From a virus: 64,000 nt of DNA. Made by a program: the position numbers and the translations under genes. The stretch is taken from positions 1-64,000 of the IMG/VR virus record IMGVR_UViG_3300009130_001695; one strand, given 5' to 3'. Positions 7,610-28,491 of the stretch are shown here, piece by piece. A model generated the notes under the pieces. It was given only the letters and a program-made list of their open reading frames with translations, was not told the origin of the DNA and ran no database searches. The number at the start of each line of letters is the position of its first letter. Within the stretch, counting starts at the first letter, position 1.

Positions 7610-8983
7610 GTGACTGACAAAGTTGTGGACTTAGAATTCAAACCACAAAATGACCAAAAAAAAATTAAGATTTTAACTATATCTGACCACCCTCTTTCAC
7701 CATCTGGTGTTGGAACTCAAACAAAATATTTTATTGCTGAAATGTTGCGAACAGGAAAGTTTGAATTTTTTAGTTTGGGAGGTGCAATTAAGCACGACAA
7801 CTATCAACCTGTCCGAACGCAAGAGTTTGGAGACGATTGGATTATCGCACCAGTTGATGGCTATGGAAATCCCGATATCGTCCGGTCAGTATTACGAACA
7901 CAAAAGCCAGATATCTTATGGTTTATGACTGATCCTCGGTTTTTCAGTTGGTTGTGGGATATGGAAAATGAAATTCGCTCTTTAGTACCTATGGTATATT
8001 ATCATGTGTGGGACAATTATCCATATCCAACTTATAACAAGGTTTGGTATGATTCAACCGATCATGTTGTTACTATTTCAAAATTAACATCTGACATTGT
8101 AAAGACGGTATCCCCGAAGACGGCTGAAACTTATTTACCACATGCAGTGCCCACTGATATGTTTAAGAAGGTTTCAAAGATCGAGAGAAACAATTATCGT
8201 AAAGAGCATCTAGGAATTGAAGAAGATGACGATCATTTACTTGTTTTTTGGAATAATAGAAATGCAAGAAGAAAGCAAAGCGGTTCATTAATATTCTGGT
8301 TTAAAGAGTTTCTTACTAAACTTCAAAAGAAGAATAAAAACGCAAAGGCCACGCTGCTGATGCATACTGAGCCCCGTGATCCAAACGGTCAAGATCTATA
8401 TGCAATTATTAACAACCTAGAACTTACTAATGGTGAAGTGCTTATTTCTACACAAAAAATCGATTTAGCCAATCTCAATCAAATTTATAATGCAGCTGAT
8501 GTTACCATTGGAATATCTGACGCCGAAGGTTTCGGGCTAGCTACTTTTGAATCACTTGCCGCAGAGACTCCCATTATTGTTACCATGACGGGTGGCCTTC
8601 AAGAGCAGGTAACTTCTATTAAAAAAGTAACCCACAAATCTATGCTCGCACGAAATAAAAAGTCTAAAAATGTGACAGAATATGAGCATGGAATCGGCAT
8701 TGAGCCTGTATCCAAATCCATCATTGGAAGTCAAGAAGTTCCATTCATTTATGAAGACCGTGTAAATGGAGAAGCAGTCGCAGACGCACTTTTAACGATG
8801 TATGAATATGGACCAGAAAAAAGAGCCGAACTAGGCGCAGCCGGTCGTGTCCATGTAGAGAAGAATTATAATTTTGCAAAATTTGCAAAAAAATGGGAGA
8901 ATATTTTGTTGGACACATATAAAAAGCATGGTTCCTGGGAAAACCGCAAAAATTATAAATCTTGGGAGTTGAGGACGCTATGA
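7610..8983 (+). CDS. Glycosyltransferase, GT-B fold, GT4-like
   Basis: A 457-residue protein. The GTG at 7610 has AAGGAG at 7594-7599; the frame opens slightly upstream but with no ribosome site. After an N-terminal extension the Rossmann half begins KIKILTISDHPLSPSGVGTQTKYF. The C-terminal half has the nucleotide-sugar motif DAEGFGLATFESLAAETPIIVT of GT4-type retaining transferases. It opens a run of about 26 co-directional sugar genes and overlaps the next gene by four bases (ATGA). Donor and acceptor are unknown; it would act in the cytoplasm. Confidence 0.85.
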   Translation: MTDKVVDLEFKPQNDQKKIKILTISDHPLSPSGVGTQTKYFIAEMLRTGKFEFFSLGGAIKHDNYQPVRTQEFGDDWIIAPVDGYGNPDIVRSVLRTQKPDILWFMTDPRFFSWLWDMENEIRSLVPMVYYHVWDNYPYPTYNKVWYDSTDHVVTISKLTSDIVKTVSPKTAETYLPHAVPTDMFKKVSKIERNNYRKEHLGIEEDDDHLLVFWNNRNARRKQSGSLIFWFKEFLTKLQKKNKNAKATLLMHTEPRDPNGQDLYAIINNLELTNGEVLISTQKIDLANLNQIYNAADVTIGISDAEGFGLATFESLAAETPIIVTMTGGLQEQVTSIKKVTHKSMLARNKKSKNVTEYEHGIGIEPVSKSIIGSQEVPFIYEDRVNGEAVADALLTMYEYGPEKRAELGAAGRVHVEKNYNFAKFAKKWENILLDTYKKHGSWENRKNYKSWELRTL

Positions 8984-10230
8984 AGAAAGTAATAGTTAAA
9001 GGACCAGCACTTAGCCAGAGTGGATATGGAGAACAAACGAGGTTCATTTTAAGGTCTTTAAGGAGTCAACCAGAGCATTTTGATATTTATTTAATCAATC
9101 TAAACTGGGGCAACACAGGGTGGCTATCGGACGATTCAGAAGAACGTCAATGGATAGATTTCCTTTTGGCCAAAACTATTCAATATAGTTCACAGAATGG
9201 ACAAATGGATATTTCTATCCAGGTTACTATCCCACAAGAATGGGAAAGCCTCGCCCCTTATAATATTGGAGCAACAGCAGGAACTGAAACAACTAAAATT
9301 TCTCCACTGTGGCTTGAAAAGAGCATGATGATGGACAAAATTATCGTCATTTCAGAACATACTAAATATGCATTTGCCAACACCACATATCCAGCTGAGA
9401 TGAACGGGCAACAAATAATTGCCAAAATAGAGTGTCCAATTGAAGTCGTGGGGTATCCCGTTAAAAAAACAACACCGCAAAAAATTGATCTAGATTTAAA
9501 ATATGATTTCAATTTCCTTGCTGTTGGAACGTGGATTGTGAGAAAGAATCTTCCTAACACCATTAAGTGGTTTGTAGAAGAATTTTATGATCAGAAAGTT
9601 GGTTTAATTATTAAAACGAGTACCGCTAAAAATTCATTACGTGACCGCAACCACACTGAAATGACTCTAAAGAATATTTTAGGACAATATGAGGGTAGGG
9701 AATGTGAAGTTTATCTTTTACATGGAGATTTGACGGAGGAGGAAATGTGCGGATTGTATACTCATGATAAGGTTAAAGCTCTTGTGAGCTTGTCTCATGG
9801 CGAAGGATATGGATTACCGATCTTTGAAGCAGTATATAATGGACTACCAGTAGTTTCTCCTGGTTGGGGCGGCCCGCTTGACTTTTTATGTATGCCAGTG
9901 AAGCAAAAAAATGGATCTTTTAAAAAGGTTCGCGCATTCACCGATATTGCCTATGATATTAAACCAATCCAGGATGAAGCTGTGTGGGAGAATGTTCTAA
10001 TAAAAGAATCTATGTGGTGTTATCCTAAAGAGTGGAATTATAAAAAAAGTTTACGCCTCCTCAAGAAAAGTCCCGGTGCATCTAAAGCCCAAGCCAAGAA
10101 GCTTCAAAAATGGGTTTTAGAAGAATTTGAAGAATCAAAACTTTATCAAAAGGTATGTGATTCCGTCTATAAACCGAGCCAAGAGGAAGAAGAATGGAAT
10201 TCAATGTTAAACGAAGTTCAGATGATCTAG
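8980..10230 (+). CDS. Glycosyltransferase, GT-B fold, GT4-like
   Basis: A 416-residue protein. Starts MKKVIVKGPALSQSGYGEQTRF, a GT-B N-terminal glycine loop, and overlaps the preceding gene by ATGA. The C-terminal domain has FNFLAVGTWIVRKN, then SLSHGEGYGLPIFEAVYNGLPVVSPGWGG, the donor-binding region of GT4 enzymes. About 25 extra residues precede the C-terminus. It is similar in design to the preceding protein, so the two may be paralogues adding successive residues to one glycan. Confidence 0.84.
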   Translation: MKKVIVKGPALSQSGYGEQTRFILRSLRSQPEHFDIYLINLNWGNTGWLSDDSEERQWIDFLLAKTIQYSSQNGQMDISIQVTIPQEWESLAPYNIGATAGTETTKISPLWLEKSMMMDKIIVISEHTKYAFANTTYPAEMNGQQIIAKIECPIEVVGYPVKKTTPQKIDLDLKYDFNFLAVGTWIVRKNLPNTIKWFVEEFYDQKVGLIIKTSTAKNSLRDRNHTEMTLKNILGQYEGRECEVYLLHGDLTEEEMCGLYTHDKVKALVSLSHGEGYGLPIFEAVYNGLPVVSPGWGGPLDFLCMPVKQKNGSFKKVRAFTDIAYDIKPIQDEAVWENVLIKESMWCYPKEWNYKKSLRLLKKSPGASKAQAKKLQKWVLEEFEESKLYQKVCDSVYKPSQEEEEWNSMLNEVQMI

Positions 10231-11072
10231 AGTCTATATTTATATGTGATTTTTATAAATCAGATTTAGATAATAAAGGTGGAGCAGAAAACAATGACTC
10301 AGTTCTTATTTCTCTTTTAGAAGATTACGGCTTTAAGGTAGAAAAAAAATATTGCCGGGAGATAACCCCCTCTTTTATTGAATCCAATAAAAATAAAAAA
10401 TTTATTATTGGCAATTTTGTAGAACTCTCTGAATTGGCCAAGGGTGCTCTTAAAGATAAGCATTATATTATCTACGAACATGATCACAAGTATTTAAAAA
10501 CACGGGATCCTTCAAGATTTCCTCATTTCAAAGCACCTGCCGATCAAGTGATTAATAGAGATTTTTATAAAAATTCAAAATGTGTTATTTGTCTAAGTAA
10601 TTCCCAGTCAGATAGTGCGAGAGACAATTTAGATATTTCTAATGTGGAAAGTATAGGTTGTAGTCTATGGTCGGAAAATAAGTTGGATTTCATTGAATCC
10701 ATAGCAGAAACACCTAAAGTTAAAGACTACTGTGTGGTGAACTCTCGCAACATAGTAAAAGGAACACAACAAGCATCGGCCTTTTGCAATCGAAGCAAAT
10801 ATGACTTTGACTTGATTCAGTCTTCCAACGAAGAAGACTTCTTAAAAACGTTATCTTCTTATAGAACGCTTGTTTATATTCCCACTGTTTTGGAATCTCT
10901 ATGTCGATTAGTGGTAGAAGCCAAAATGCTTAATTGCGGTGTTATTACGAAAACCCAGTTATTGGGAGCCGCCTCACAAGATTGGTGGGGACTCAATGGG
11001 AAAGATTTAATAAATGCAATCCGCAAACAACAAAAAATAGCTTTTGATATTTTTTTAAAGCACTTAACATAG
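10194..11072 (+). CDS. Putative GT-B glycosyltransferase, divergent
   Basis: A 292-residue protein whose start overlaps the preceding gene by 37 bases. The N-terminus (IFICDFYKSDLDNKGGAENNDSVLISLLEDYG) suggests a glycosyltransferase nucleotide-binding entry, KHYIIYEHDHKYLKTRDP a middle segment, and VYIPTVLESLCRLVVEAKMLNCGVIT resembles the donor-site E...EA pattern of GT4. It is shorter than usual for GT-B enzymes (~350-400). Function as a transferase is inferred from motif and position, and is less certain than for its two neighbours. Confidence 0.65.
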   Translation: MEFNVKRSSDDLESIFICDFYKSDLDNKGGAENNDSVLISLLEDYGFKVEKKYCREITPSFIESNKNKKFIIGNFVELSELAKGALKDKHYIIYEHDHKYLKTRDPSRFPHFKAPADQVINRDFYKNSKCVICLSNSQSDSARDNLDISNVESIGCSLWSENKLDFIESIAETPKVKDYCVVNSRNIVKGTQQASAFCNRSKYDFDLIQSSNEEDFLKTLSSYRTLVYIPTVLESLCRLVVEAKMLNCGVITKTQLLGAASQDWWGLNGKDLINAIRKQQKIAFDIFLKHLT

Positions 11073-11082
11073 AGAAGAATAC

Positions 11083-11994
11083 ATGATTTATGTCACGGGC
11101 GGTGCTGGTTTTATTGGAAGTAATTTAGTCAAGAAAATAAGTAAGTTACAATTAGATAATGTGGTGGTAGTAGACCAACAGGGCAAACTGATCCAACAAA
11201 AGCCAAATCTTGATTCACATGTTTCGGGTTTTATTGAATACCATGATTTTATTCAAAACTTGAATATTTTAGAGAAAGACGATGTAATTTTTCATCAAGG
11301 TGCCTGCACTGATACTATGAATTATAATAGTATCGAGATGATGTATAAGAACTTTGAATATAGTAAAATTTTGTTTGATTATTGTTCTCGCAACAATGTT
11401 CGCCTAATCTATGCATCTTCTGCGGCAGTGTATGGTCTGGGACGGAATGGTTTCAGTGAGTCTGTTGCATGTGAAAATCCTATTAATATTTATGCCAAAT
11501 CAAAGCTTTTGTTCGACAACTATGTAAGGTGTTTTGATATTAGCCCACAAATTGTAGGATTGAGATATTTTAACGTATATGGCCCAGGGGAACAAAACAA
11601 AGACAAAATGGCATCAACCATCTATCAATTCTTTAATCAAATTAAAGATGAAAAAATTGTTAAACCCTTTGAAGGGAGTGATAAATTTTTGCGTGATTTT
11701 ATATACATCGACGATATTATAAATGTTAATTTGTTTTTTTACCATCGACCCTCCTTAAGTGGTATTTTTAATTGTGGCACAGGAAATCCTCAATCATTTA
11801 TGGAGATTGTTGAGGAATTAAAAAAATACTATGAATTTGATATAATAGAAAAAGAGATGCCTGAAGGTTTGACAGAAAAATATCAAAAATATACTAAAGC
11901 CGATTTGACTAAATTAAAAGAAGCTGGATATAAATTTCCTTTTATGACTCTAAAACAGGGTATAGAAAAATATATTCACGCTTTAGAACAATGA
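11083..11994 (+). CDS. hldD: ADP-glyceromanno-heptose 6-epimerase
   Basis: A 303-residue SDR enzyme: NAD(P) loop TGGAGFIGSN at residues 5-14, HQGACTDT near 71 (HldD-type for the usual HLGAC), catalytic YAKSK near 143, and LRYFNVYGPGE. The HQGACTDTMNYN stretch and NFEYSKILFDYC match HldD/RfaD and separate it from other epimerases. It converts ADP-D-glycero-D-manno-heptose to the L-glycero form, the last step of ADP-heptose synthesis. It is followed with a 4-base overlap by the adenylyltransferase, then the kinase, which strongly supports the assignment. Cytoplasmic. Confidence 0.9.
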   Translation: MIYVTGGAGFIGSNLVKKISKLQLDNVVVVDQQGKLIQQKPNLDSHVSGFIEYHDFIQNLNILEKDDVIFHQGACTDTMNYNSIEMMYKNFEYSKILFDYCSRNNVRLIYASSAAVYGLGRNGFSESVACENPINIYAKSKLLFDNYVRCFDISPQIVGLRYFNVYGPGEQNKDKMASTIYQFFNQIKDEKIVKPFEGSDKFLRDFIYIDDIINVNLFFYHRPSLSGIFNCGTGNPQSFMEIVEELKKYYEFDIIEKEMPEGLTEKYQKYTKADLTKLKEAGYKFPFMTLKQGIEKYIHALEQ

Positions 11995-12395
11995 CTTCTA
12001 CAATTGTGTTTACTAACGGTTGTTTTGATATTTTACACCGTGGACACATCGAACTTTTTAAGTATGCTAAAAGCTTGGGTTCTACTTTGATAGTGGGCAT
12101 TGATACCGATGAAAAAGTCAAACAAGATAAGGGTTCAGATCGCCCTTTTAATTCCTTAAAAGACCGCATTTTTATATTAGAATCTATCAAGTATATAGAT
12201 GAGGTCGTGGTGTTCGGAAGCAAGCAGGAACTACAAAATCTTGTAGCTTCAATAACTCCTGATATTCTAGTCAAAGGAACGGACTGGAAAGGGAAGGAGA
12301 TCGTTGGCGAGGAATCAGCAAAGGAGGTAAGATTTTTTGAACGCATCCAAGGGTATTCAACAACTGAAATACTTGAAAATTCTCCTAATTGGTGA
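11991..12395 (+). CDS. hldC: D-glycero-beta-D-manno-heptose 1-phosphate adenylyltransferase
   Basis: A 134-residue nucleotidyltransferase. TNGCFDILHRGHIELF (residues 8-23) is the cytidylyltransferase-like HxGH signature of RfaE domain II, followed by VGIDTDEKVKQDKG and RPFNSLKDR, then STTEIL near the end. It adds AMP to heptose 1-phosphate. In E. coli this domain is fused to the kinase (HldE); here it is a separate gene, as in bacteria with HldA plus HldC. The 3' end overlaps the kinase gene by 59 bases. Confidence 0.9.
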   Translation: MTSTIVFTNGCFDILHRGHIELFKYAKSLGSTLIVGIDTDEKVKQDKGSDRPFNSLKDRIFILESIKYIDEVVVFGSKQELQNLVASITPDILVKGTDWKGKEIVGEESAKEVRFFERIQGYSTTEILENSPNW

Positions 12396-13134
12396 TTCGT
12401 GTATTGATCGTTATCATTATGGTACATGTGAACGCATGAGCCCCGAGGCCCCTGTACCAGTTTTCAAAGTGTCCCATACCGAAAACCAAGGGGGTATGGC
12501 CTTGAATGTTAAGTCTAATCTAGAAGGTTTAGGAGTAAAGGTTGATATTTTGACCAATGCGGAGGAAATAATAAAGGTTAGGCACATTGATATAAAATCG
12601 CGCCAACACCTCCTTCGAGTAGATTGGGGTGAAGAGCACTCAACAGAGCCTTTGGCGGTTGATCGTCTCGATGCCGTTGACTTCGATCTATACGATGGGG
12701 TTGTAATTTCAGATTACGACAAAGGTTTGATAACACCGGAAGTGGTTGAAAATATATTATTTCGGTGTCCCAATAAACCAATATTTGTGGATAGTAAGAA
12801 AAAAGATCTTTCTCCGTATGAGGGGTGTATTTTAAAGATCAATGAAAAGGAATCCCATGAAGCTCACAAACTACCTTTAAAATGCGAATTAATTGTGACC
12901 CTGGGTGAACGGGGAGCAACCTATAACGGAGAAGATTTTGGTACACAAAAAGTAGAAATTTTTGATGTTTGTGGTGCTGGTGATACGTTCTTAGCAGGTT
13001 TGTCATCGGCTTTCATATTGACCAACAGTATGAAACGCTCAATTGCTTTTGCTAATTTATGTGGTGGTATTGCTGTTCAGAAATTTGGAACCTATACGAT
13101 GAAAAAGGAGGAGCTATATGATATATATATTTGA
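12337..13134 (+). CDS. hldA: PfkB-family heptose 7-phosphate kinase
   Basis: A 265-residue kinase. Start: TTG at 12337 with the ideal site AAGGAGG at 12321-12327; no ATG is available before the conserved LLIGDSCIDRYHYG. Motifs: ERMSPEAPVPVF, GGMALNV, SDYDKGLITPEVV, VTLGERGA and GAGDTFLAGL with the catalytic Asp. The SPEAPVPV stretch is typical of RfaE domain I. It would phosphorylate D-glycero-D-manno-heptose 7-phosphate at C1. It is about 50 residues shorter than the E. coli HldE kinase domain, so it is compact. The 59-base overlap with hldC suggests coupling; the 3' end overlaps the next gene by 17 bases. Confidence 0.88.
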   Translation: MNASKGIQQLKYLKILLIGDSCIDRYHYGTCERMSPEAPVPVFKVSHTENQGGMALNVKSNLEGLGVKVDILTNAEEIIKVRHIDIKSRQHLLRVDWGEEHSTEPLAVDRLDAVDFDLYDGVVISDYDKGLITPEVVENILFRCPNKPIFVDSKKKDLSPYEGCILKINEKESHEAHKLPLKCELIVTLGERGATYNGEDFGTQKVEIFDVCGAGDTFLAGLSSAFILTNSMKRSIAFANLCGGIAVQKFGTYTMKKEELYDIYI

Positions 13135-13438
13135 TATTGATGGAACTATTTGTACTCACACCACCGGCAATTATGACGAGGCTGAACCATTAGTTGAGAG
13201 AATAAAAAAAAATAATTCTTTGTATGATGAGGGGCACACCATTATTTACCAAACAGCTCGCGGGATGGGCCGTACAAACAACAATGTTTTGAAATCCTAT
13301 AAGTTATTTTATTCTTACACAGTAAACCAGCTGGATGGTTGGGGGGTTAAATATCATGATTTATTTTTAGGAAAACCAAACGGTGATATATACGTTGATG
13401 ATAAAGGGAAAAAAGATGAAGACTTCTATTCCAATTAA
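13118..13438 (+). CDS. Small HAD-like hydrolase, capsule-biosynthesis type
   Basis: A 106-residue protein with AAGGAGG just upstream. HAD motif I is IFDIDGTICT (residues 3-12), then TIIYQTARGMGRT as motif II region and GKPNGDIYVDDKG as motif III/IV region. It resembles the short BcbF-type HAD proteins found in capsule and LPS clusters rather than GmhB, which is about 180 residues. It could be the phosphatase for heptose 1,7-bisphosphate, but the length argues for caution. Confidence 0.75.
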   Translation: MIYIFDIDGTICTHTTGNYDEAEPLVERIKKNNSLYDEGHTIIYQTARGMGRTNNNVLKSYKLFYSYTVNQLDGWGVKYHDLFLGKPNGDIYVDDKGKKDEDFYSN

Positions 13439-13775
13439 ATTTGTACCCAAAGGTTGGGGTTTTGAAAAATGGATTGTTAATTGCGAACAGTATTGTGGAA
13501 AACTTTTATATTTTGTAAAAGACAAGCGATGTTCGTGGCACTATCATAAACTGAAAGATGAGGTATTCTATATTCAGTCGGGCAAAATCTGTTTAAAATA
13601 TTCGGATGATAATGATATAATGAATGCTAGTGAAATTATCTTAAACAAAGGGGATAATTTTCATGTTTATACAGGATTGAGACATCAAATGATAGCACTA
13701 GAAGATACTGAGTTGTTTGAATTTTCGACTCAACATTTTGATGAAGACAGCTACCGAGTGATTAAGGGAGATTAA
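13416..13775 (+). CDS. Cupin-domain protein
   Basis: A 119-residue protein. The ATG at 13416 has AAAGGG seven bases upstream and overlaps the HAD gene by 23 bases. A single cupin: GKLLYFVKDKRCSWHYHKLKDEVFYIQSGKI (metal-binding HxH...E) and GDNFHVYTGLRHQMIALED (second-motif His). It is similar to mannose-6-phosphate isomerase-type cupins and to ketoisomerases of dTDP-sugar pathways; which reaction it does is not clear. Neighbours suggest sugar modification. Confidence 0.78.
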   Translation: MKTSIPIKFVPKGWGFEKWIVNCEQYCGKLLYFVKDKRCSWHYHKLKDEVFYIQSGKICLKYSDDNDIMNASEIILNKGDNFHVYTGLRHQMIALEDTELFEFSTQHFDEDSYRVIKGD

Positions 13776-14459: not shown

Positions 14460-15836
14460 GTGAAAAAAGTAATTTTAGTACAACCTTATTATGAAAATAT
14501 TTGGGAACCCATCGGCCTCGGCTTTATTGCGGCATATCTTAAAAAACATTATGTAGGAGATCTCGATATACAGTGTTTCCAGGGAAATTTTGATACCGAT
14601 GAAACTATTATTGAAGCCTGCATGGACGCAGACGTGGTGGGTTTTTCCTGCACATCACCAGCTTGGCCTCATGCATTAAGACTGGCTGAGAAAATTAAAG
14701 AAAATAATCCCACCACACGAACGGTTTTTGGTGGATTTCATGTTTCGGCCCTCCCAGATGTTTGTATTAAATACGAAGCAGTGGATCAGATTGTAGTAGG
14801 TGAAGGAGAAGAAGCATTTTTGCAAATTGTTAATGGTTGTACTGACTCTATTGTTGATGGAACTAAGACAGATATGAAAGAGATCCCATGGCCTGATAGA
14901 GAAGTTATAAAAAATCATAGAACTGTTGATCTATGTGAATCTATGAATGGCAAACGAATTGCCTCGTTCCAAGTTAACCGTGTATGTCCTGTGGTTTGTG
15001 CCTTTTGCGCGGAAAGGGTCATAACAGGCAAGTTTAGAAAAAGTAACCCCGTAAGAACACGATCAATTCCTGATGCTTTGGACGAAATCGACCAAGTAAT
15101 AAAAGATTTAAATTTAAACTATTTTAAGTTCGTTGACGCCACCTTCGATATTAGCCCCCAATTTGTAATTGACTTTTGTAAAGAAAAAATCAGGAGAGGA
15201 AACACAACTGAGTGGGAATGCCTGATTCATTGTAGTTTTACCTCCGATGAAATGTTTTATTGGTTAAAAAAAGCTCAATGTCACCAAGTTAATATGGGTG
15301 TTGAAAGTGGGAGCGATAAAATACTTAAAGATATCGGTAAGGGTTTGCGCGTCAAACGAGTGCGTAAAGCGTTTGAGTGGGCAAAGAAGCACAGAATTGA
15401 AAGAAGGGGGTTTTTCCTTCTAGGAATGCCCAATGAAACCCGCGAGGATTTAAGAATGACTGAAGATTTAATCGACGAGATACAACCAGACGTGGTAGGT
15501 TTTACAATCCTTTGTCCATATCCAGGAACCGATCTCTATGAGCACGACAAACACCATAACACGGACTGGGAGACGATGGATGAATATAAGAATGATTTTT
15601 GGTCAACCGAACACTTTACGAATATTGAACTCAAGGCACAGCAGGCATATTTTAAGACCAAATACGACCTGCTGTTGTGTGAAAGACAGGAAGATTCATC
15701 TCAAGTGGGAGGATTCGGGGATATGAGAGGCACCACTCTCAGTGAACTTGAACAAAGTGCCCCAGACTTTGAAGATCCAAGCGCACAACTAGACGATCCT
15801 TCCACAACCAACAACCCCTTAAACGTTATACAATAA
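14460..15836 (+). CDS. B12-binding/radical SAM enzyme
   Basis: A 458-residue protein. N-terminal cobalamin-binding-like domain: VILVQPYYENIWEPIGLGFIAAYLKK, VGFSCTSPAWPHALRLAEKI, GGFHVSALPD and IVVGEGEEAF. Radical SAM core: cluster motif CPVVCAFC at residues 176-183 (C-x3-C-x2-C), then NYFKFVDATFDIS, NMGVESGSDKIL and RRGFFLLGMPNETRED. This is the class-B layout of BchE-like methylases or rearrangement enzymes. Within a sugar cluster it may make a methylated or rearranged sugar. The GTG start has a weak AAGGAAG upstream. A 48-base gap before it holds nothing else I can identify. The C-terminal 60 residues are low-complexity and acidic. Confidence 0.83.
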   Translation: MKKVILVQPYYENIWEPIGLGFIAAYLKKHYVGDLDIQCFQGNFDTDETIIEACMDADVVGFSCTSPAWPHALRLAEKIKENNPTTRTVFGGFHVSALPDVCIKYEAVDQIVVGEGEEAFLQIVNGCTDSIVDGTKTDMKEIPWPDREVIKNHRTVDLCESMNGKRIASFQVNRVCPVVCAFCAERVITGKFRKSNPVRTRSIPDALDEIDQVIKDLNLNYFKFVDATFDISPQFVIDFCKEKIRRGNTTEWECLIHCSFTSDEMFYWLKKAQCHQVNMGVESGSDKILKDIGKGLRVKRVRKAFEWAKKHRIERRGFFLLGMPNETREDLRMTEDLIDEIQPDVVGFTILCPYPGTDLYEHDKHHNTDWETMDEYKNDFWSTEHFTNIELKAQQAYFKTKYDLLLCERQEDSSQVGGFGDMRGTTLSELEQSAPDFEDPSAQLDDPSTTNNPLNVIQ

Positions 15837-20047: not shown

Positions 20048-20327
20048 GTATTATACCTATTATTTAGACTTGCACACTCATCCAAAGTGTAGACTGCTGC
20101 ATTTTATAGGACAGCTTTTCACCTTAATTGTTTTAGGTGCTTTCGCATATACAGGTTCTTGGATTTATCTATTCATTTCTCCTTTTGTGGTATATCCTTT
20201 TGCCTGGTCAGCCCACTTTATTTTTGAAAAGAATAAACCAGCGGCATTCAGTGATCCTATCAAGGCAAAAATATGTGATTTTAGAATGTTTATAGAAATT
20301 TTAAGAGGTAAATTAAGTATATGGTAA
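20022..20327 (+). CDS. DUF962/Mpo1-like membrane protein
   Basis: A 101-residue protein with the family pattern YYLDLHTHPKCRLLHFIG, two hydrophobic segments (FTLIVLGAFAYTGSW and YLFISPFVVYPFAWSAHF) and HFIFEKNKPAAFSDP. Yeast Mpo1 is an Fe(II)-dependent dioxygenase that shortens 2-hydroxy fatty acids; bacterial members are uncharacterised. The His residues of HTHP, LLHF and SAHF are the probable metal ligands. A membrane lipid-modifying enzyme amid sugar genes suggests work on a lipid-linked precursor or on lipid A-type hydroxy fatty acids, which is inference. Confidence 0.8.
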   Translation: MLTRNEIDEYYTYYLDLHTHPKCRLLHFIGQLFTLIVLGAFAYTGSWIYLFISPFVVYPFAWSAHFIFEKNKPAAFSDPIKAKICDFRMFIEILRGKLSIW

Positions 20328-21271: not shown

Positions 21272-21279
21272 GGGACGTT

Positions 21280-22023
21280 GTGATAAAATTAGAAATACCA
21301 CTGGTCCAAAATCCCTTCGCACCCTATCAAAATCTACATTCGGGTGAGACTGCAATTTTGTTTGGCTCTGGCCCGTCACTTTTAAACTTCGACAGTGGTA
21401 AAATCTCCTCAGAGGTTTTACAGTTTGGGATAAATGATCAGATATTTTTAGATTTAGACCTGGATTATTGGTTTATGGGAGACAGCCATCGCCAAGATCC
21501 GGCTTATTTTTTTGATAAATTTGAACTTTATGATGAGTACAAACCTTTAAAGCAAAAATTTGTGAGATATTGTAATTGGGCACATCAGGAATTTATTCAG
21601 AGTGGACCTCACAAGGTTCCTAGAAGTGGCCAGTTGCCCCTAAACATGCAGCATACCAAATATTATCCTGCTGACTCCGCAGGAAATCCCGAGCGATGCC
21701 TTTTTAATAAGGATTTAGCGACTGGTCATTTGCAGGCAGTGAGTTCAATAACTTTTGAAATTTTACAGTTTGTGTTGTATACTGGTGTGGAAAAGCTCTT
21801 TTTGGTGGGTCACGATTGTGACTATACTACAGGGGATTATAATGGCTCTAATATTGGTAAGAATTTAAATGCGGGTTATTGGATCTCCAAATATTGGGGA
21901 GTCTGTGCCCCGTGGATTGCTCAAAATTATCCTAAATTAGAGATTTATTGGGTAGAACCCAAGGGGTTGGATATGTTTACCCCGATTACTCTAGAAGCGG
22001 CTTATGAGATGATGAACCAATGA
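21280..22023 (+). CDS. Rossmann-type glycosyltransferase-like protein (DUF115/Maf- or GT42-like)
   Basis: A 247-residue protein starting with GTG at 21280 behind AGGGGAC. TAILFGSGPSLLNF (residues ~28-41) followed by LQFGINDQIFLDLDLDYWFMGD and, near 170, EILQFVLYTGVEKLFLVGHDCDYTTGDYNG, has the GxGPSL...N and GhD pattern of DUF115 (Maf) and sialyltransferase-like GT42 proteins. Those transfer nonulosonic acids from CMP-sugars, which would fit the CMP-sugar synthetase gene 1.7 kb downstream. Assignment is by motif pattern only. Confidence 0.66.
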   Translation: MIKLEIPLVQNPFAPYQNLHSGETAILFGSGPSLLNFDSGKISSEVLQFGINDQIFLDLDLDYWFMGDSHRQDPAYFFDKFELYDEYKPLKQKFVRYCNWAHQEFIQSGPHKVPRSGQLPLNMQHTKYYPADSAGNPERCLFNKDLATGHLQAVSSITFEILQFVLYTGVEKLFLVGHDCDYTTGDYNGSNIGKNLNAGYWISKYWGVCAPWIAQNYPKLEIYWVEPKGLDMFTPITLEAAYEMMNQ

Positions 22024-22748
22024 AAGTACAAACAAAAAATATAATAGAAACTTTTGACTCCCTTGACCATGAAAATCATGAGTCTTTAACGCACGGTGCT
22101 ACCGTTAACGCTATAAAAGAGTTGGTTTTGGAATTAGACCAAAAACATTTTTTAGAAAGGAAAGTGAAGTTTTTGTTAGATATTCGTGGGTATTTAAAAT
22201 TAAATAACATTAATGGCAATTATGTGGAATTTGGAAGTTACAAGTCTGAGATGCAATATGCCGCTTATGAAATTTTAAACTCCACCCACACTATAGACAA
22301 ATATATTGGTCTTGATACTTTTAAAGGCGAACCAACTTTACGCATGAAGGATAAAGTCCACTCCGTTCATCTCCAAAAAGAACAATTCTCAGCATCCCAC
22401 GAGGAAACAGAGGAGTTTGTAAAAAAATATTTAGGCGACTCTGGTTTTTTAATAAAAGGGGATTTTCGTCACAAAAGGGTAATGAGTAAACTAGACTCTT
22501 TTGAGGATTTTAATGTGGTGGTTATTGATTGTAATCTACTATCCTCAATTGAGGCCGCACTAGATTATATTATTCCACGTACTACTCCAGGCGGCTTAAT
22601 CTTTATAGATGACTTTTATGTGAACTGCTCCCAAGGGAAGTTGGTTACGGAAAAAGTTTTTTCCAAAATATTAAAAAAACATAAAAAGAAAGCTTCTAAG
22701 CATTCTTTCTATGCGCCGTTCGCTCATTCATTTATTATCACTGATTAA
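22020..22748 (+). CDS. TylF/macrocin-type O-methyltransferase-like protein
   Basis: A 242-residue protein with ATGA overlap. GNYVEFGSYKSEMQYAAYE (SAM loop near residue 63-80), YIGLDTFKGEP near 95, IKGDF near 145, and NVVVIDCNLLSSIEAALDYIIPRTTPGGLIFIDDFY follow the TylF pattern, which methylates sugar hydroxyls of macrolides and glycans. The usual Mg-binding D-D pair is represented by VIDCN and IDDF. The C-terminus is Lys-rich. Probable sugar O-methylation. Confidence 0.75.
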   Translation: MKVQTKNIIETFDSLDHENHESLTHGATVNAIKELVLELDQKHFLERKVKFLLDIRGYLKLNNINGNYVEFGSYKSEMQYAAYEILNSTHTIDKYIGLDTFKGEPTLRMKDKVHSVHLQKEQFSASHEETEEFVKKYLGDSGFLIKGDFRHKRVMSKLDSFEDFNVVVIDCNLLSSIEAALDYIIPRTTPGGLIFIDDFYVNCSQGKLVTEKVFSKILKKHKKKASKHSFYAPFAHSFIITD

Positions 22749-22757
22749 AGGAAGGTT

Positions 22758-23765
22758 ATGTTAGATTTAGAAAACTTTAGTGAGAAATTTCAACAAATTG
22801 TAAAGTCTGAAAGTTGGCAACAAGTAGAAGACCTATTTAAAAAATCTAAAAATATTCTCATTTTTGGAAATGGGGGTAATCTTGCTATAGCAGATCACGC
22901 AGCGATAGATATTACTAGGTTGACTGATAAAAATGCAATCGCACCAGGCTCTGGTATTACTGCAACTTCAATAATTGGAGATAAAGATGCCCATAGCTGG
23001 TTTAAAAGTTGGCTGGAATATAGACTACGAGGTATCAGTTTAAATAATTGTATGGTGATTTGTATCTCTTGCTCTACAACTGGAACAAGTTCTGAGGCTT
23101 CTGTGTTAGCTTTAAATTATGCTGCTGATTTGGGGATTCCCGCCGTTTTAATCTCAGCACAGCCAAAGGAAGATTTAGATGAAAGGATTATTTCAGTTTC
23201 TCAGAATGTTTCCCTTTATCATACTTCAGAAGTCCTATCTTTAGCACTAACTTATCAACTCACTCATTCTGCTGGGTTTGAATGCCCTTCAATCTTCAAG
23301 AAGGCCAGAAGTCGAGAGTTTGAAAAATTAGGTATTGAGTCAGAGAGAGAAGATTCTTCTATTGTGAAGAATACTGCACTATCTTCGAAGCATTGTCCCC
23401 CAGGGATGGAGGAACAATTAAATAATTTGGCGATTGATTTTGATGGGGTAGTTCACACTTTTGATAAAGGGTGGCACGATGGGACTTGCTATGGAGATCC
23501 AATTGAAGGATCTCTGGATGCCATTAAGTCTCTATCACAGAAGTATAATATTATTATTTTTAGTGCCAAGGTACGCCCAGACCGCCCATTGGTTAATGGA
23601 AAAACAGGAAAAGAGTTAGTGGACGAATGGTTAACAAAATATGGTGTAAGAGATTGTGTTGTAGATATTACTCACGAAAAACCACGCGCTGAATATTATA
23701 TTGATGACAAAGCCATTCCTTTTACGAATAATTGGGACGAGATTCTTAATCAATTAAAGGATTAA
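22758..23765 (+). CDS. SIS-domain (GmhA-like) isomerase fused to a HAD-type domain
   Basis: A 335-residue two-domain protein with AAAGGAAGG before the ATG. Residues 1-195 are a SIS domain: ILIFGNGGNLAIADHAAIDITR near 34-55 matches GmhA (sedoheptulose 7-phosphate isomerase) better than other SIS proteins, and ISCSTTGTSSEASVLALNYA is the second phosphosugar loop. Residues ~225-335 are HAD-like: LAIDFDGVVHTFD (Asp nucleophile), IIIFSAKVRPDR and AEYYIDDKAIPF. The fusion could join the first and third ADP-heptose steps (GmhA and GmhB), or the HAD half may act on another phosphosugar. It is placed 9 kb from hldDCA. Confidence 0.82.
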   Translation: MLDLENFSEKFQQIVKSESWQQVEDLFKKSKNILIFGNGGNLAIADHAAIDITRLTDKNAIAPGSGITATSIIGDKDAHSWFKSWLEYRLRGISLNNCMVICISCSTTGTSSEASVLALNYAADLGIPAVLISAQPKEDLDERIISVSQNVSLYHTSEVLSLALTYQLTHSAGFECPSIFKKARSREFEKLGIESEREDSSIVKNTALSSKHCPPGMEEQLNNLAIDFDGVVHTFDKGWHDGTCYGDPIEGSLDAIKSLSQKYNIIIFSAKVRPDRPLVNGKTGKELVDEWLTKYGVRDCVVDITHEKPRAEYYIDDKAIPFTNNWDEILNQLKD

Positions 23766-23766
23766 T

Positions 23767-24426
23767 ATGAAAAACATTACAGCTATTATTCCAGTTCGCA
23801 AAGGTTCTGTTCGTGTAAAAAATAAAAACCTTAAACCATTTGCTGATTCTAGTTTGCTAGAAATCAAAATCAAACAACTTAAGAACATTAACATCCTTGA
23901 CCGTATAGTGGTAAGTTCTGATTGTGAAAAAATGCTTAATCTTGCCAATAATTTGGGGGTTGAGACTCATCAAAGGGATGAATATTATGCAAGTTCTGAG
24001 GCAAATAATTCGGAATTTTTTAAGAATTTGGGACAAAGTGTTGATGGCGATTATCTTATGTATAGTCCTGTAACGTGTCCTTTAATCTCCAAAGAAACTT
24101 ATTTAGATTGTATTAATACATTTCAAAAGGATAGTATTGAAAATCTGGTAAGTGTAGCTCCAGTTAAACATCACATGTGGTTAGATGGGAAACCATTGAA
24201 TTATGACATTGCGAATTCTCCCAATAGTCAAGATTTGCCCGATATTTATCAGATTACATATGGAATATCTATTATTGCTAAAAATGACATGATAGAATGT
24301 GGAAATGTTGTTACACGAAATCCTACATTTAAAGTGTTGGATGAGATTGAATCTATCGACATTGATACAGAATTTGATTTCATGGTAGCAGACTTTGTGT
24401 ATAAAAAGATTCATGGATTACATTAA
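23767..24426 (+). CDS. CMP-sugar synthetase (acylneuraminate cytidylyltransferase-like)
   Basis: A 219-residue enzyme. ITAIIPVRKGSVRVKNKNLKPF (residues 4-25) is the CMP-NeuAc/CMP-Kdo synthetase nucleotide loop, then VVSSDCEKML, YASSEANNSEF and SIDIDTEFDFMVAD, whose Asp pair binds Mg. It attaches CMP to a 2-keto acid sugar. No sialic-acid synthase (NeuB) or Kdo synthase lies in the window, so the substrate would come from the host or from genes outside. One base separates it from the SIS-HAD gene. Confidence 0.84.
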   Translation: MKNITAIIPVRKGSVRVKNKNLKPFADSSLLEIKIKQLKNINILDRIVVSSDCEKMLNLANNLGVETHQRDEYYASSEANNSEFFKNLGQSVDGDYLMYSPVTCPLISKETYLDCINTFQKDSIENLVSVAPVKHHMWLDGKPLNYDIANSPNSQDLPDIYQITYGISIIAKNDMIECGNVVTRNPTFKVLDEIESIDIDTEFDFMVADFVYKKIHGLH

Positions 24427-24459
24427 AGTTTTGGGACAATCTGTTGTAAAATATAGATA

Positions 24460-25413
24460 ATGAATGTTTTAGTTACAGGCGGTGCAGGCTTTATTGGTTC
24501 CAATTTTGTAGAGTTTGTTCTAGAATCAAAACGACACTTAATTTCCAAAATTGTTAATCTAGATGCGTTGACTTATGCAGGTGATTTATCCAATACGGAA
24601 GAATTTAAAGATGATTCCAAATATATTTTTGAAAATGTCAATCTGTGCAATATGGATGCCCTGGCGAATGTGTTTAGGAGACATAATATTACTCATGTCA
24701 TTCATCTGGCAGCAGAAAGTCATGTTGACAACTCCATAGAAGATCCTTCTGAGTTCATTCAAAGTAATGTCGTTGGCACATTTAACCTTTTAAAACTATC
24801 TAAAGAACTTGGCGTAAAAAGATTTCATCACGTTTCTACCGATGAAGTCTATGGCGAACTGGGCCATGATGGAAAGTTTGACGAGTCAACACCTTATAAT
24901 CCACACAACCCCTATTCTGCTTCCAAAGCATCTTCTGATTTTTTGGTGAGATCTTATTTTCACACTTATGGATTACCAGTAACAATATCAAACTGTTCTA
25001 ACAATTATGGACCCCGACAACATTCTGAAAAGTTCATTCCCACTGTTATTAATTCGATCTTATTAAAGCGTCCAATCCCTCTTTATGGCGCAGGGCTAAA
25101 CGTAAGAGATTGGATATATGTAAAGGATCACTGTGAAGGCATTTGGGATGTTTTTGAAAAAGGAAAACTGGGCGAAACTTATTGTATAGGCTCTAATTGT
25201 GAAAAGAAAAATATTGATGTCATTAGATTAATATGTGATTTATTGCAAGTAAAGCCAGCAGATTGTATAGAATATGTCGAAGATCGATTAGGGCACGATT
25301 TTAGATATGCAATTGACAGTACCAAAATTGAACATGAATTAAATTGGAAGCCCCAAACTTCTTTTCAATCGGGCCTTGAAAAAACAATAGGGTGGTATTA
25401 TGAACGACGTTAA
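24460..25413 (+). CDS. rfbB: dTDP-glucose 4,6-dehydratase
   Basis: A 317-residue SDR: MNVLVTGGAGFIGSNFVEFVL, LDALTYAGDLSN, VIHLAAESHVDNSIEDP, HVSTDEVYGEL, YSASKASSDFLVR (catalytic Tyr and Lys) and NCSNNYGPRQHSEKFIP. These are diagnostic for RmlB, which makes dTDP-4-keto-6-deoxyglucose. Slightly shorter than the usual ~350. It overlaps the RmlA-type gene by 14 bases, so synthesis of dTDP-sugars is coupled. A 33-base gap before it has a TATAGATA stretch but no clear ribosome site. Confidence 0.93.
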   Translation: MNVLVTGGAGFIGSNFVEFVLESKRHLISKIVNLDALTYAGDLSNTEEFKDDSKYIFENVNLCNMDALANVFRRHNITHVIHLAAESHVDNSIEDPSEFIQSNVVGTFNLLKLSKELGVKRFHHVSTDEVYGELGHDGKFDESTPYNPHNPYSASKASSDFLVRSYFHTYGLPVTISNCSNNYGPRQHSEKFIPTVINSILLKRPIPLYGAGLNVRDWIYVKDHCEGIWDVFEKGKLGETYCIGSNCEKKNIDVIRLICDLLQVKPADCIEYVEDRLGHDFRYAIDSTKIEHELNWKPQTSFQSGLEKTIGWYYERR

Positions 25414-26122
25414 AGGAATAATTTTAGCTGGTGGGATGGGAACCCGTTTGTATCCCCTTACCAAAGTTACAAACAAGCATCTTTTGCCGATTGGTGGTGA
25501 ACCAATGATTTTTTATCCTTTAAGAAAGCTGATTGAATGCGGAATAAAGGATATTATGATTGTCACAGGTGTAGAACACAGTAGCGGGATGACTTCTCTC
25601 CTTGGGAGTGGCAAGTCGCATGGCTGTTCGTTTACTTATCGAGTACAAGATGAACCTGATGGTATTGGTGGCGCTTTAAAGTTATGTAAGAATTTTGTGG
25701 GAGATTCTTCATGCGTGGTATTGCTGGGTGATAATATATTTAAAGAAGATTTGGAGCCCCATATAAATTCTTTTGTTGAAAGCGGAGATGATTGCAAATT
25801 ATTTTTTAAAAGAGTTCCCGATCCTCGCAGATATGGTGTCGGCGTTTTTAAAAATAAGAGAATTATAAGAATCGATGAAAAGCCTGATGAACCCCAAAGT
25901 AATTTGGCTTGCGTTGGCATTTATTTTTATACAAACAAAGTTTTTGAAGTGCTCGAAACAACTGCGCCTTCTGATCGTGGCGAATATGAGATAACAACAG
26001 TTAATAATGTTTTCATTTCGAAGAATACTTGCGACCATGCAACCCTTAAAGATCGGTGGGTCGATGCAGGAACCATGGACTCTTATCACAAAACGAACTG
26101 GCTCGTTTACCGAGAGGGTTGA
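25400..26122 (+). CDS. rfbA: Glucose-1-phosphate thymidylyltransferase, short form
   Basis: A 240-residue nucleotidyltransferase: IILAGGMGTRLYPLTKVTNKHLLPI (GGxGTRL and PxxK), EPMIFYPLRKLIECGIKDIMIV, VQDEPDGIGGALKLC and VLLGDNIF, as in RmlA. It is about 50 residues shorter than typical RmlA, lacking the C-terminal allosteric/dimer segment, so feedback control may be lost. It supplies dTDP-glucose to the dehydratase just upstream. Two-base gap to the next gene. Confidence 0.9.
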   Translation: MNDVKGIILAGGMGTRLYPLTKVTNKHLLPIGGEPMIFYPLRKLIECGIKDIMIVTGVEHSSGMTSLLGSGKSHGCSFTYRVQDEPDGIGGALKLCKNFVGDSSCVVLLGDNIFKEDLEPHINSFVESGDDCKLFFKRVPDPRRYGVGVFKNKRIIRIDEKPDEPQSNLACVGIYFYTNKVFEVLETTAPSDRGEYEITTVNNVFISKNTCDHATLKDRWVDAGTMDSYHKTNWLVYREG

Positions 26123-26123
26123 G

Positions 26124-26831
26124 ATGAAATTATTAATTACAACACGAGCAGACGCCGCTTGCACTGAGTGGGCAGAATTAATGCATCCTATTTTCACCCA
26201 ATATGCTCATCGAATTGGCGCAGATTTTGTAATTCTTGATGAAACTTTGAATTGCCCCGAAGCAGGAACAGGCATCGGAAATGGTGTCTATCAGTATCGA
26301 ATTATGAAACATTATGACTTACACGAGGAGTATGATCGCATTTTACACCTTGACAGTGACATGTTACTTTCACCTGAGTGCCCTAATTTATTTGATGTTG
26401 TTCCATACGATAAAATCGGAACTATATTTGAGGATAAAGGAACCCGCAAATCTCAAAGAATTCAGTGTATTATGAACTCACAACATCAATTTGGGGATAT
26501 CGGCTGGAGAGAAGGCTACATAAATACTGGTGTTTTCGTTACTTCCAAATGCCATCGAGATATTTATAAAAAAATTAATGGAGAGTATTTCACCGAATGG
26601 GGAACAGATGATATTCATATTGGTTATTTGATTAATAAACTTAAGTATGAAATAGAAGAATTGCCATATCAATTTAATCATATGACAATGTTTTCAGAAT
26701 CATGGAATGAAAATCCCGACCGTTTTGAGTCTCACATCATTCACTATGCTGGTCGTGGAGTTTTTGAGCCGGGTAGCGCACCAAATAAAATAGAGCAAGC
26801 CAAACTAGATTATGAAAGGTGGTATAAATGA
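26124..26831 (+). CDS. GT8-like glycosyltransferase
   Basis: A 235-residue protein. ATG at 26124 behind GAGAGGG; upstream codons in the same frame shadow rfbA. MKLLITTRADAACTEWAELMHPIFTQYAHRIGADFVIL, then YDRILHLDSDMLLSPEC (DxD near residue 75), GYINTGVFVTSKCHRDIYK and WGTDDIHIGYLI are the pattern of retaining GT-A enzymes of the glycogenin/GT8 type. ATGA overlap with the next gene. Donor unknown. Confidence 0.8.
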   Translation: MKLLITTRADAACTEWAELMHPIFTQYAHRIGADFVILDETLNCPEAGTGIGNGVYQYRIMKHYDLHEEYDRILHLDSDMLLSPECPNLFDVVPYDKIGTIFEDKGTRKSQRIQCIMNSQHQFGDIGWREGYINTGVFVTSKCHRDIYKKINGEYFTEWGTDDIHIGYLINKLKYEIEELPYQFNHMTMFSESWNENPDRFESHIIHYAGRGVFEPGSAPNKIEQAKLDYERWYK

Positions 26832-27637
26832 AGCAATTAATAGCTGGTCCATGGGTTGGAGAATTTGGTTGGGAATTGTTTGCGTGGCAAGGATATATGC
26901 GGTCGCTTTCAAAGCATTACGATAAGACTATAATTATTTCAAGAGAAAATTCAAAGTCATTTTATGATGACTTTGCTGATGGGTTTTATCCCTTTTCACC
27001 CACTGGTGGTCTTTCCGATGCATTTTTTATGCACAATTTAGATATTAAAAAAGCCTTTATGTCAGTGGCAAAAGAATATAAGATCTCTTTGGACTCTAAC
27101 ACAACGGTGCTTTTACCACGCAGACTGGGAATCCCACCACACACCCACTATACCCAGCATTTGATCTTCGGAGATTTAATGATTCAACCTGACTATATTA
27201 AATTTGGAGAAGAAGGCATTTCAAAATATGATTATATTTTTCACATTCGAGATAGAGATTTAAGAAAAGAAGATAATTGGAGTTTAGAGAAGTGGTCCGC
27301 CCTCCGCGATTTATTGGATACCAAGAAGATTGCTTGTATTGGAACCCAAAATGAGTCCGGTCACATAGATGGCACAGATGATTTACGAGACATTCCAATT
27401 CAAGAATTGTTAAACGTGATGAGAAACTCACAGTGCGCTTTCGGACCTTCATCTGGTCCCATGCATTTGGCAAGTTTATGTGGCCTTCCGCATGTTGTAT
27501 GGTCTATCCCACAAAATAAGCTGCGATATGAGGAAAATTGGAACCCTTTAAAGACTAGGGTACTTTTTGATTCTACGAATAATTGGCACCCAACCGCAGA
27601 ATATATTTATGATAGATTTAAGGAATGGAGTCAGTGA
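26828..27637 (+). CDS. GT9-like (heptosyltransferase-type) glycosyltransferase
   Basis: A 269-residue protein. KQLIAGPWVGEFGWELFAWQGYMR at the N-terminus and SQCAFGPSSGPMHLASLCGLPHVVW near residue 205 follow the two signatures of GT9 enzymes, whose members use ADP-heptose. It is shorter than WaaC/WaaF (~320-350). Because this phage encodes the ADP-heptose pathway, this is the best candidate for the transferase that uses it; the acceptor could be a lipid, protein or glycan. Confidence 0.75.
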   Translation: MKQLIAGPWVGEFGWELFAWQGYMRSLSKHYDKTIIISRENSKSFYDDFADGFYPFSPTGGLSDAFFMHNLDIKKAFMSVAKEYKISLDSNTTVLLPRRLGIPPHTHYTQHLIFGDLMIQPDYIKFGEEGISKYDYIFHIRDRDLRKEDNWSLEKWSALRDLLDTKKIACIGTQNESGHIDGTDDLRDIPIQELLNVMRNSQCAFGPSSGPMHLASLCGLPHVVWSIPQNKLRYEENWNPLKTRVLFDSTNNWHPTAEYIYDRFKEWSQ

Positions 27638-28491
27638 ATATACTAGTAACGGGTGGCGCGGGGTTTGTTGGATCTAATTTAATAGCAGAATTGGTGAAAC
27701 ATAAGTCTTTAAATATTATTTCATTAGATAATTATTTTACCGGAACAAAGTCTAATCATCACCCAAATGTTACATACGTTGAAGGTAATTGCAGTGATAT
27801 TGAAGAATTGATTACTATAATTCCGGAAGTTGTGTTTCATTTTGGAGAATATTCGAGGGTATCCACAAGTTTTGAAGATAGAGACATCGTGTGGGATTAC
27901 AATATTAAAGGAACATATGAGGTTTTAAATTTTTGTTTGAAGCGTGGAAGTAAGTTCATATACTCCGCATCAAGCACCAAATTTGGAGATAATGGGGAAA
28001 ACCAGAATGCTTCACCGTATGCCTTCTTTAAATCTCAAAACACTGACTTAATTAATAATTTTCATAAATGGTTTGGACTTGATTATGCAATATGTTATTT
28101 TTATAATGTATACGGCGTAGGACAAATAAGGACCGGCAAATATGCCACTGTAATTGGCATTTTTGAGGAACAATATGTAAACGGAGAACCATTAACGATT
28201 GTCAAGCCCGGTACACAGAAAAGAGACTTTACCCATATTGATGATATTGTAAATGGGTTACTTCTGCTAATGAAGAATGGACAAGGCGACGGATATTGTT
28301 TTGGCACTTCGCAGAGTTATGAGATAAATGAAATTGCAAAAATGTTCAAGAATGATGTAAAATACATTAACAATAGAAAAGGCGAACGCCTTGATTCATC
28401 GATTGATTTAACAAAGTCATCAGGATTGGGCTGGAAACCTCAAAATAATCTCAAAGATTATATAAAAAAATTTAAGGAGAAAATAAAATGA
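27634..28491 (+). CDS. NAD-dependent epimerase, UDP-hexose type
   Basis: A 285-residue SDR. The GTG at 27634 overlaps the preceding stop (GTGA) and has GGAG five bases upstream; an in-frame ATG at 27625 is also possible. ILVTGGAGFVGSNLIAEL, VVFHFGEYSRVSTSFED, SASSTKFGDNG, YAFFK (Tyr/Lys present), YFYNVYGVGQI and KRDFTHIDDI fit the WbpP/GalE branch. It closes the sugar block; the next gene overlaps by four bases, so sugar and late genes may share a transcript. Confidence 0.82.
   Translation: MNILVTGGAGFVGSNLIAELVKHKSLNIISLDNYFTGTKSNHHPNVTYVEGNCSDIEELITIIPEVVFHFGEYSRVSTSFEDRDIVWDYNIKGTYEVLNFCLKRGSKFIYSASSTKFGDNGENQNASPYAFFKSQNTDLINNFHKWFGLDYAICYFYNVYGVGQIRTGKYATVIGIFEEQYVNGEPLTIVKPGTQKRDFTHIDDIVNGLLLLMKNGQGDGYCFGTSQSYEINEIAKMFKNDVKYINNRKGERLDSSIDLTKSSGLGWKPQNNLKDYIKKFKEKIK

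Follow-up and report, generated by a model that had tools for sequence, protein, structure and literature searches.

The 64,000-nucleotide stretch analyzed here (the window) comprises bases 1 to 64,000 of the viral IMG/VR record IMGVR_UViG_3300009130_001695, a 71,618-base fragment whose remaining bases were also read. It carries a block of 26 consecutive sugar genes on the plus strand (7583 to 28491), and comparison with related records shows that this locus is a fixed docking site with a swappable insert in a marine T4-like phage lineage. Our searches of an openly licensed library turned up no description of this site. As to its function, the evidence leans slightly toward a stepwise glycosylation of protein in the cytoplasm that uses neither flippase nor lipid carrier, with a virion protein of the tail or baseplate as the likeliest target.

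Relatives were fetched by their baseplate wedge protein, nuclease, and radical SAM protein, and their loci were laid out using the window proteins as queries. To the left of the island, the recurrent order is PhoH, a zincin-like protein (our own label), a nuclease, and two core glycosyltransferases, GT4a and GT4b. GT4a follows the nuclease in 79 of 80 nuclease-anchored loci, the one exception ending at the nuclease itself, and GT4b is present in 70, the other 10 ending before it. To the right lie small genes and the protein encoded from 29286. Among 50 of the 61 records chosen, every one has a GT4b homologue and 48 have a homologue of the 29286 protein (G001 and G005 gave no match). The distance between these two borders varies from 405 to 24,084 bp across the 48 records, with a median of 13,838; it is 19,056 bp in the window and longer than that in 10 of the 48. 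The initial annotation considered the block larger than usual for a phage, which is true against T4-type phages and fails against its own lineage, given those 10 longer inserts. One of the 48 records, G048, is arranged otherwise, with sugar genes on the opposite side of the nuclease. Sugar genes concentrate within the site: the island intervals make up 15.3% of the bases in 49 records and hold 114 of 120 epimerase matches and 48 of 50 DegT matches.

The content of the island varies between records, and two modules recur. One is the heptose module discussed below. The other runs GT-D, the 16424 gene, Fcl-like, DegT, SDR, Mpo1, SDR, Maf-like, SIS-HAD, NeuA-like, short DegT, radical SAM, RmlB, RmlA, GT8, GT9. 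The short DegT and radical SAM genes follow NeuA in the relatives and precede GT-D in the window, a displacement that we take as a sign of shuffling. The short DegT protein (211 aa, 13776 to 14411) is kept beside the radical SAM gene in the relatives, and a longer DegT occupies that place in the bacterial loci described below. Flavobacterium phage immuto and Microcystis phage Mel-JY01 are the isolates closest by the baseplate wedge protein, at 33% identity. Both share with the window the succession of PD-(D/E)XK nuclease, GT4a, GT4b, and sugar genes, with one small gene intervening in immuto and one guaB-like gene in Mel-JY01. Their sugar genes, however, differ from those of the window, and many small genes precede the baseplate.

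Within the window, the open reading frame (ORF) lists bear out the tight packing that had been noted, with the block now starting at 7583. No gap at a junction exceeds 48 nt. Four-nucleotide ATGA or GTGA overlaps occur at five internal junctions and again where the block passes into the following ORF; choosing an alternative ATG creates such overlaps at two more junctions. Several long overlaps, among them those of 110 nt (16424) and 116 nt (26007), are artifacts that arose because the first start codon was taken; better starts for these two lie at 16535 and 26124. The block reads co-directionally into baseplate genes, and the genes at 39798 and 40214 match baseplate wedge proteins. Functions were assigned from hidden Markov model scans (Pfam, NCBI curated TIGR/NF models, and PHROG). 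Two enzymes, HldD (TIGR02197) and RmlB (TIGR01181), passed the NCBI equivalog cut-offs. HldE kinase, HldE adenylyltransferase, RmlA, PseC, and PseF were the best-named matches below these cut-offs, and because of the lower scores the substrates of those five are uncertain. The block encodes eight known or probable glycosyltransferases, where at least seven transferases had been counted before; two of the eight (16535 and 21280) are weakly supported.

The islands appear to lack their own flippase, polymerase, ligase, or membrane oligosaccharyltransferase, although those of the host could still serve. As the initial annotation had stated, no Wzx, Wzy, or ligase is encoded in the block; neither is an initiating transferase, and a hydropathy count found no polytopic membrane protein among the 26 genes. 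The search beyond the window agreed: PF01943 (Wzx), PF04932 (Wzy_C), and PF02397 (Bac_transf) were each absent from all 31 lineage records searched (out of 51, the 50 relatives plus the window's own fragmentary record, which was among the 31), with positive bacterial controls and with the WecA family outside the search. We also counted predicted membrane helices in 871 ORFs of at least 80 aa from 51 island stretches in 46 of the 50 records. No helix was predicted in 783, one in 84, and two in 4, so that none had three or more, which argues that the islands carry no exporter. Counted in this way, Escherichia coli WbbH (Wzy) scored 5 helices, RfbX (Wzx) scored 9, and D1 of cyanophage P-SSM2 scored 3; the count is a plain, untrained hydropathy count that runs low, as the D1 value illustrates. 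It left out G027 and G030, whose inserts have the length of that in G029, and about 0.4 to 1.4 kb is missing at the right end of the islands in G003, G004, G046, and G047. By comparison, the E. coli K-12 O16 (rfb) cluster combines RmlA, RmlB, and transferases as the window does, but is annotated with Wzx and Wzy, neither of which showed in the islands examined here.

The cellular relatives recovered for the second module also point away from an exported glycan. A radical SAM alignment searched against a collection of 84,980 species genomes recovered three loci. Two are long, one in a Calditrichaeota metagenome-assembled genome (MAG) and one in a second bacterial MAG; the third is a 3.7-kb contig with the radical SAM and a GT8-like gene only. 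Both long loci encode relatives of the DegT, Fcl-like, Maf-like, GT8-like, and NeuA-like proteins, and one encodes TylF. Identities to the window proteins are 57 to 62% for radical SAM, 43 to 48% for GT8-like, 46% for TylF, 31 to 35% for Maf-like, and 28 to 30% for NeuA-like, and in the back-comparison the same window protein ranked first for each of these five. Both long loci, the two that could be tested for their neighborhood, lie directly downstream of flagellar genes. In the first MAG, Pfam identifies these as FlgA, FlgH, FlgI, FlgJ-like, FlgK, a flagellin-domain protein at the place of FlgL, and FliW, and in the second as FlgK, a flagellin-domain protein, and FliW. A small CsrA-like ORF lies between the flagellar genes and the sugar locus; the names CsrA and FlgL were read from sequence and gene order, not from family searches. 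The radical SAM, GT8-like, TylF (in one MAG), Maf-like, DegT, and NeuA-like genes beside flagellar genes have counterparts in the window. Maf-dependent glycosylation of flagellin is reported to occur in the cytoplasm (PMC4065374), and Maf-type islands, like the island of the window, have soluble enzymes. The window's island differs from them in that Pfam scans showed no nonulosonate synthase among its 26 genes, and in its additional heptose module.

Large sugar clusters in phages are already known, so the novelty implied for this block at first is not supported: the block is not unprecedented. P-SSM2 is described as carrying 24 lipopolysaccharide (LPS) genes in two clusters (PMC2984593), and the LPS clusters of S-SSM7, S-SM2, and P-SSM2 are reported near hli03 and/or phoH and tRNAs, with seven LPS genes common to the three cyanophages, including T4-GC 304, 305, 307, and 308 (PMC3037559). 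By PHROG matches, each of the five genes in the heptose module of the window has a counterpart of its kind among T4-GC 304 to 308 of P-SSM2, where 304 is annotated as an HldE part, 305 as a kinase, 307 as a cupin ("cysteine dioxygenase"), and 308 as an epimerase, with 306 between them; the position of 306 corresponds to the small HAD-like protein at 13118 and 307 to the window cupin. In all three cyanophage clusters, as in the window, HldE-C, HldE-N, a phrog_1238 protein, a cupin, and HldD are found as a group, close to phoH (in P-SSM2) and among many glycosyltransferases and SDRs. HldE-C is 52% identical to that of P-SSM2 and up to 64% identical to those of other cyanophages. HldD is only 34% identical to that of P-SSM2, and its best identities in the phage-record search were about 42%, to records of which some look like bacterial chromosome. 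In the window HldD comes first in the module and reads in the direction of the other genes, whereas in P-SSM2 and S-SSM7 it is encoded on the other strand. The window also differs from the cyanophage clusters in its site, its other glycosyltransferases, and baseplate genes that come from another lineage. The host recognition cluster of pelagimyophages is, as described in PMC7029224, likewise a hypervariable, glycosyltransferase-rich island that keeps one place in the genomes of T4-like marine phages, but it sits, together with tail fibers, between VrlC and gp14, whereas the window island lies between nuclease-GT4-GT4 and the pre-baseplate genes. In another large aquatic lineage, four glycosyltransferase groups are reported among widely shared genes, in an article that cites virion glycosylation in mycobacteriophages (Freeman et al. 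2023, cited in PMC12619734).

Poorly matched proteins were followed up by structure and profile comparisons. HldD residues Y137 and K141, which we take to be catalytic, aligned with and were conserved in E. coli RfaD. The GT9-like protein (26828) aligned with E. coli WaaF, WaaC, WaaQ, and WaaU at an hhalign probability of 90 (E = 1.4e-6), over 107 columns only. When profiles were searched against the PDB, 21280 and 10194 had no match, and the matches of 26828 and 16532 were dismissed as implausible (E of 0.25 or worse).

How the system would work can be sketched from these genes. Apart from a small Mpo1-like protein, the enzymes all look soluble, so a protein in the cytoplasm is the most likely place of glycan assembly, and the kinship with a flagellar-adjacent bacterial locus suggests that the phage adds sugars to proteins, perhaps those of its own tail, while still inside the cell. 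GT4a and GT4b, always present at the left edge, would begin or assemble a glycan common to the lineage, for which the insert would supply variable activated sugars, presumably of ADP-heptose type, dTDP-6-deoxy/amino type, and a CMP-activated sugar, together with further transferases. As when flagellin is glycosylated, assembly would proceed stepwise on the protein and need neither flippase nor lipid carrier, and the likeliest acceptor is a virion protein of the tail or baseplate. The 2641-aa baseplate-region protein contains a Ser/Thr-rich stretch (serine and threonine make up 42% of 60 residues counted from 2203), which is a candidate acceptor and nothing more. Giant proteins of 2641 aa (31856 to 39781) and 3573 aa (43541 to 54262) stand beside the baseplate genes, and the sole domain recognized in them is a concanavalin-like LamG domain in the second.

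Several findings weigh against cytoplasmic glycosylation of a virion protein. The virion acceptor is itself inferred, and the heptose genes and GT9-like enzyme also suit an LPS core. The Maf-like protein (21280) is a weak link: its PF01973 match is weak and its model poor, with a predicted local distance difference test score (pLDDT) of 46. Foldseek found no match to this model at E <= 0.001, and VIA-align gave a best Z of 6.2, with Campylobacter sialyltransferases at Z 4.8 to 5.3, tied with unrelated Rossmann folds. An alignment of the Maf-like protein found no match in cellular genomes, and neither this protein nor a 506-aa baseplate-region protein had a match in 50,697 phage records. Pfam scans of the 26 genes gave no match to a NeuB/PseI nonulosonate synthase, which leaves a classical sialic-acid-type pathway incomplete. 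The two MAGs look closely related and so amount to about one observation. Late-promoter-like TATAAATA was not enriched (7 seen versus about 5.8 expected from base composition), a result that carries little information. The absence of exporters holds for the records examined, and the window's own record is a 71.6-kb fragment, not a whole phage. Finally, the authors who described similar phage clusters and islands favored modification of the host surface (PMC2984593, PMC7824862, PMC7029224).

That published view of the cyanophage and pelagimyophage clusters is the strongest competitor, and we judge it rather unlikely here. It would have the sugars passed to the host O-antigen or LPS machinery, thereby blocking superinfection or grazing. 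An HldD above its curated cut-off and a GT9-like enzyme fit this view, as does the correspondence of four of the seven LPS genes common to the three cyanophages (PMC3037559) with the heptose module of the window. Yet polytopic membrane proteins, flippase and polymerase among them, are missing from the islands examined, as is an initiating transferase, and the cellular homologues of the second module adjoin flagellar genes rather than an O-antigen locus. Host-surface modification keeps its share of probability because a phage could feed the machinery of its host. The flagellar kinship could also mean that the sugars go onto a protein of the host, be it flagellin or some other protein of the cell surface. 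We regard this as quite improbable: the two GT4 genes persist in records with almost no island, a pattern that fits a constant target in the phage.

Glycosylation of DNA by GT4a and GT4b (and 10194), with island sugars as donors, is in our view improbable. The core transferases do stand beside the nuclease throughout the relatives, and the PDB neighbors of the 10194 model, led by BshA and PimA, include the T4 DNA alpha-glucosyltransferase and a glycosyltransferase of phage HY126. However, the thymidylate-synthase/hydroxymethylase family PF00303 (ThyA) was found in none of the 31 records, all of them actual or possible fragments, and immuto is annotated with a 7-deazaguanine route; its annotation also includes a thymidylate synthase. 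Tet_JBP was likewise found in none of the 31, which is evidence in neither direction because its controls were silent. The proposal of the initial annotation, a cytoplasmic, non-exported sugar on protein or DNA, thus gains in its cytoplasmic part from the missing exporters and the flagellar kinship, and its choice of acceptor leans toward protein on account of the missing ThyA-type family in these 31 incomplete records. That such a block makes a glycosylated small molecule, or is mere stuffer DNA in headful packaging, has been proposed for cyanophage clusters (PMC3037559, PMC7824862) and seems very improbable for this island, whose frames are open, whose active sites are conserved, and whose modules and order persist across relatives. 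Cytoplasmic glycosylation of a virion protein remains the reading that we favor, and the features on which it draws are collected in Table 1.

Table 1. Genes of the sugar island and its borders in the window, with the matches that support each assignment
Feature	Position	Strand	Evidence
PD-(D/E)XK exonuclease	6828..7595	+	PF12705 E 2.6e-16; fixed left border
GT4a, conserved core glycosyltransferase (GT-B)	7583..8983	+	PF00534 5e-9; phrog_2170; homologues in immuto, Mel-JY01, RM378
GT4b, conserved core glycosyltransferase	8962..10230	+	PF00534 0.0004 (below cut-off); phrog_2170 6.7e-15
GT-B fold glycosyltransferase without family	10194..11072	+	No Pfam/PHROG match; confident model, mean pLDDT 93
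HldD, ADP-heptose 6-epimerase	11083..11994	+	TIGR02197 323 bits vs cut-off 274.6
HldE C-part, heptose-1-P adenylyltransferase-like	11991..12395	+	TIGR02199 2e-39, below curated cut-off; phrog_7878
HldE N-part, heptose-7-P kinase-like (PfkB)	12337..13134	+	TIGR02198 2.4e-49, below cut-off; phrog_8133
Small HAD-like protein (HAD is our own label)	13118..13438	+	phrog_1238 7.7e-26 (PHROG "phosphoheptose isomerase" family)
Cupin	13383..13775	+	phrog_7851 5.4e-60; PF07883
Short DegT-type aminotransferase, 211 aa	13776..14411	+	PF01041 5.7e-18
B12-binding radical SAM enzyme	14460..15836	+	PF04055, PF02310; C176, C180, C183 invariant
GT-D glycosyltransferase	15838..16533	+	PF08759 9.6e-9
Possible glycosyltransferase	16535..17269 (ORF list start 16424)	+	No family match; conserved in 6 relatives; label inferred from context
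SDR, GDP-fucose-synthase-like (Fcl-like)	17230..18186	+	PF01370; NF047922 below cut-off
DegT aminotransferase, PseC/ArnB-like	18183..19316	+	PF01041 3.4e-96; PseC model below cut-off
Short SDR	19313..20047	+	Weak PF13460/PF01370
Mpo1-like membrane protein	20022..20327	+	PF06127 6.2e-28
SDR epimerase/dehydratase	20321..21271	+	PF01370 2.7e-37
Maf/MptE-like putative transferase	21280..22023	+	PF01973 0.0021, below cut-off
TylF-like O-methyltransferase	22020..22748	+	PF05711 8e-9
SIS (GmhA-like) + HAD fusion	22758..23765	+	SIS domain nearest to phosphoheptose isomerases (PDB 1tk9, profile E 0.0019); phrog_1238 in C part
CMP-sugar synthetase-like (NeuA/PseF)	23767..24426	+	PF02348 2.6e-15; PseF model below cut-off
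RmlB, dTDP-glucose 4,6-dehydratase	24460..25413	+	TIGR01181 430 bits vs cut-off 365
RmlA-like sugar-1-P nucleotidyltransferase	25400..26122	+	PF00483 2.2e-53; RmlA model below cut-off
GT8-like glycosyltransferase	26124..26831 (ORF list start 26007)	+	PF01501 0.0002, below cut-off
GT9-like glycosyltransferase	26828..27637	+	hhalign only; no Pfam match
SDR epimerase	27625..28491	+	PF01370 7.5e-38
Fixed right border: small genes, 29286 protein, two pre-baseplate genes	28488..31853	+	
2641-aa baseplate-region protein, candidate acceptor	31856..39781	+	Ser/Thr-rich stretch

Two neighbors in this table and its surroundings deserve separate mention. The Mpo1-like protein (2-hydroxy fatty acid dioxygenase family) has 12 distinct relatives in the fetched loci and only 2 among the 50,697 phage records. 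A protein encoded at 5815 to 6501, between PhoH and the nuclease, gave a very weak metallopeptidase match below cut-off and is present in nearly all relatives.

The window also carries a genuine phage transfer-messenger RNA (tmRNA) at 1500 to 1973 (Rfam RF00023, 103.6 bits against a gathering threshold of 47). The permuted-tmRNA model scored 56.8 bits (gathering threshold 47) at 1409 to 1621, a stretch that covers the 5' half of the standard tmRNA. The tag that ARAGORN gives for the window looks wrong, since ANDNVALTLAA-stop is encoded just before 1621 and ANDNVALTLAA is what ARAGORN gives for L098 and other relatives. Inside the tmRNA gene lies an ORF of 65 aa (1706 to 1903) that has a strong Shine-Dalgarno sequence and is nested likewise in L084 and L104, and similar ORFs occur in other relatives at 48 to 89% identity. 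ARAGORN reported tmRNAs in 17 of 60 lineage loci (L084, L087, L088, L095, L096, L098, L100, L103, L104, L106, L108, L109, L120, L122, L129, L154, and L159), with tags ending in ALAA in some and shorter tags ending in LAA or MAA in others. Eight relatives have compact tmRNAs of 237 to 253 nt.

In the published accounts consulted, the host-LPS reading of marine phage sugar clusters rests on gene content. A fixed site, the lack of exporters in the islands examined, and kinship with a flagellar-adjacent locus offer a concrete alternative to it, and these three are what the present analysis adds. Taken to its full extent, the alternative would mean that a widespread, largely uncultured T4-like lineage O-glycosylates its own tail proteins in the flippase-free manner of flagellin and changes glycan "serotypes" by swapping the insert, comparable to the O-antigen variation of bacteria, and that the "LPS clusters" of cyanophages are virion-glycosylation systems whose purpose has been misread over twenty years; we put this forward tentatively, as a possibility with the balance somewhat against it. 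Swappable virion glycans, if they exist, would bear on adsorption, grazing, and the diversification of phages in the ocean.

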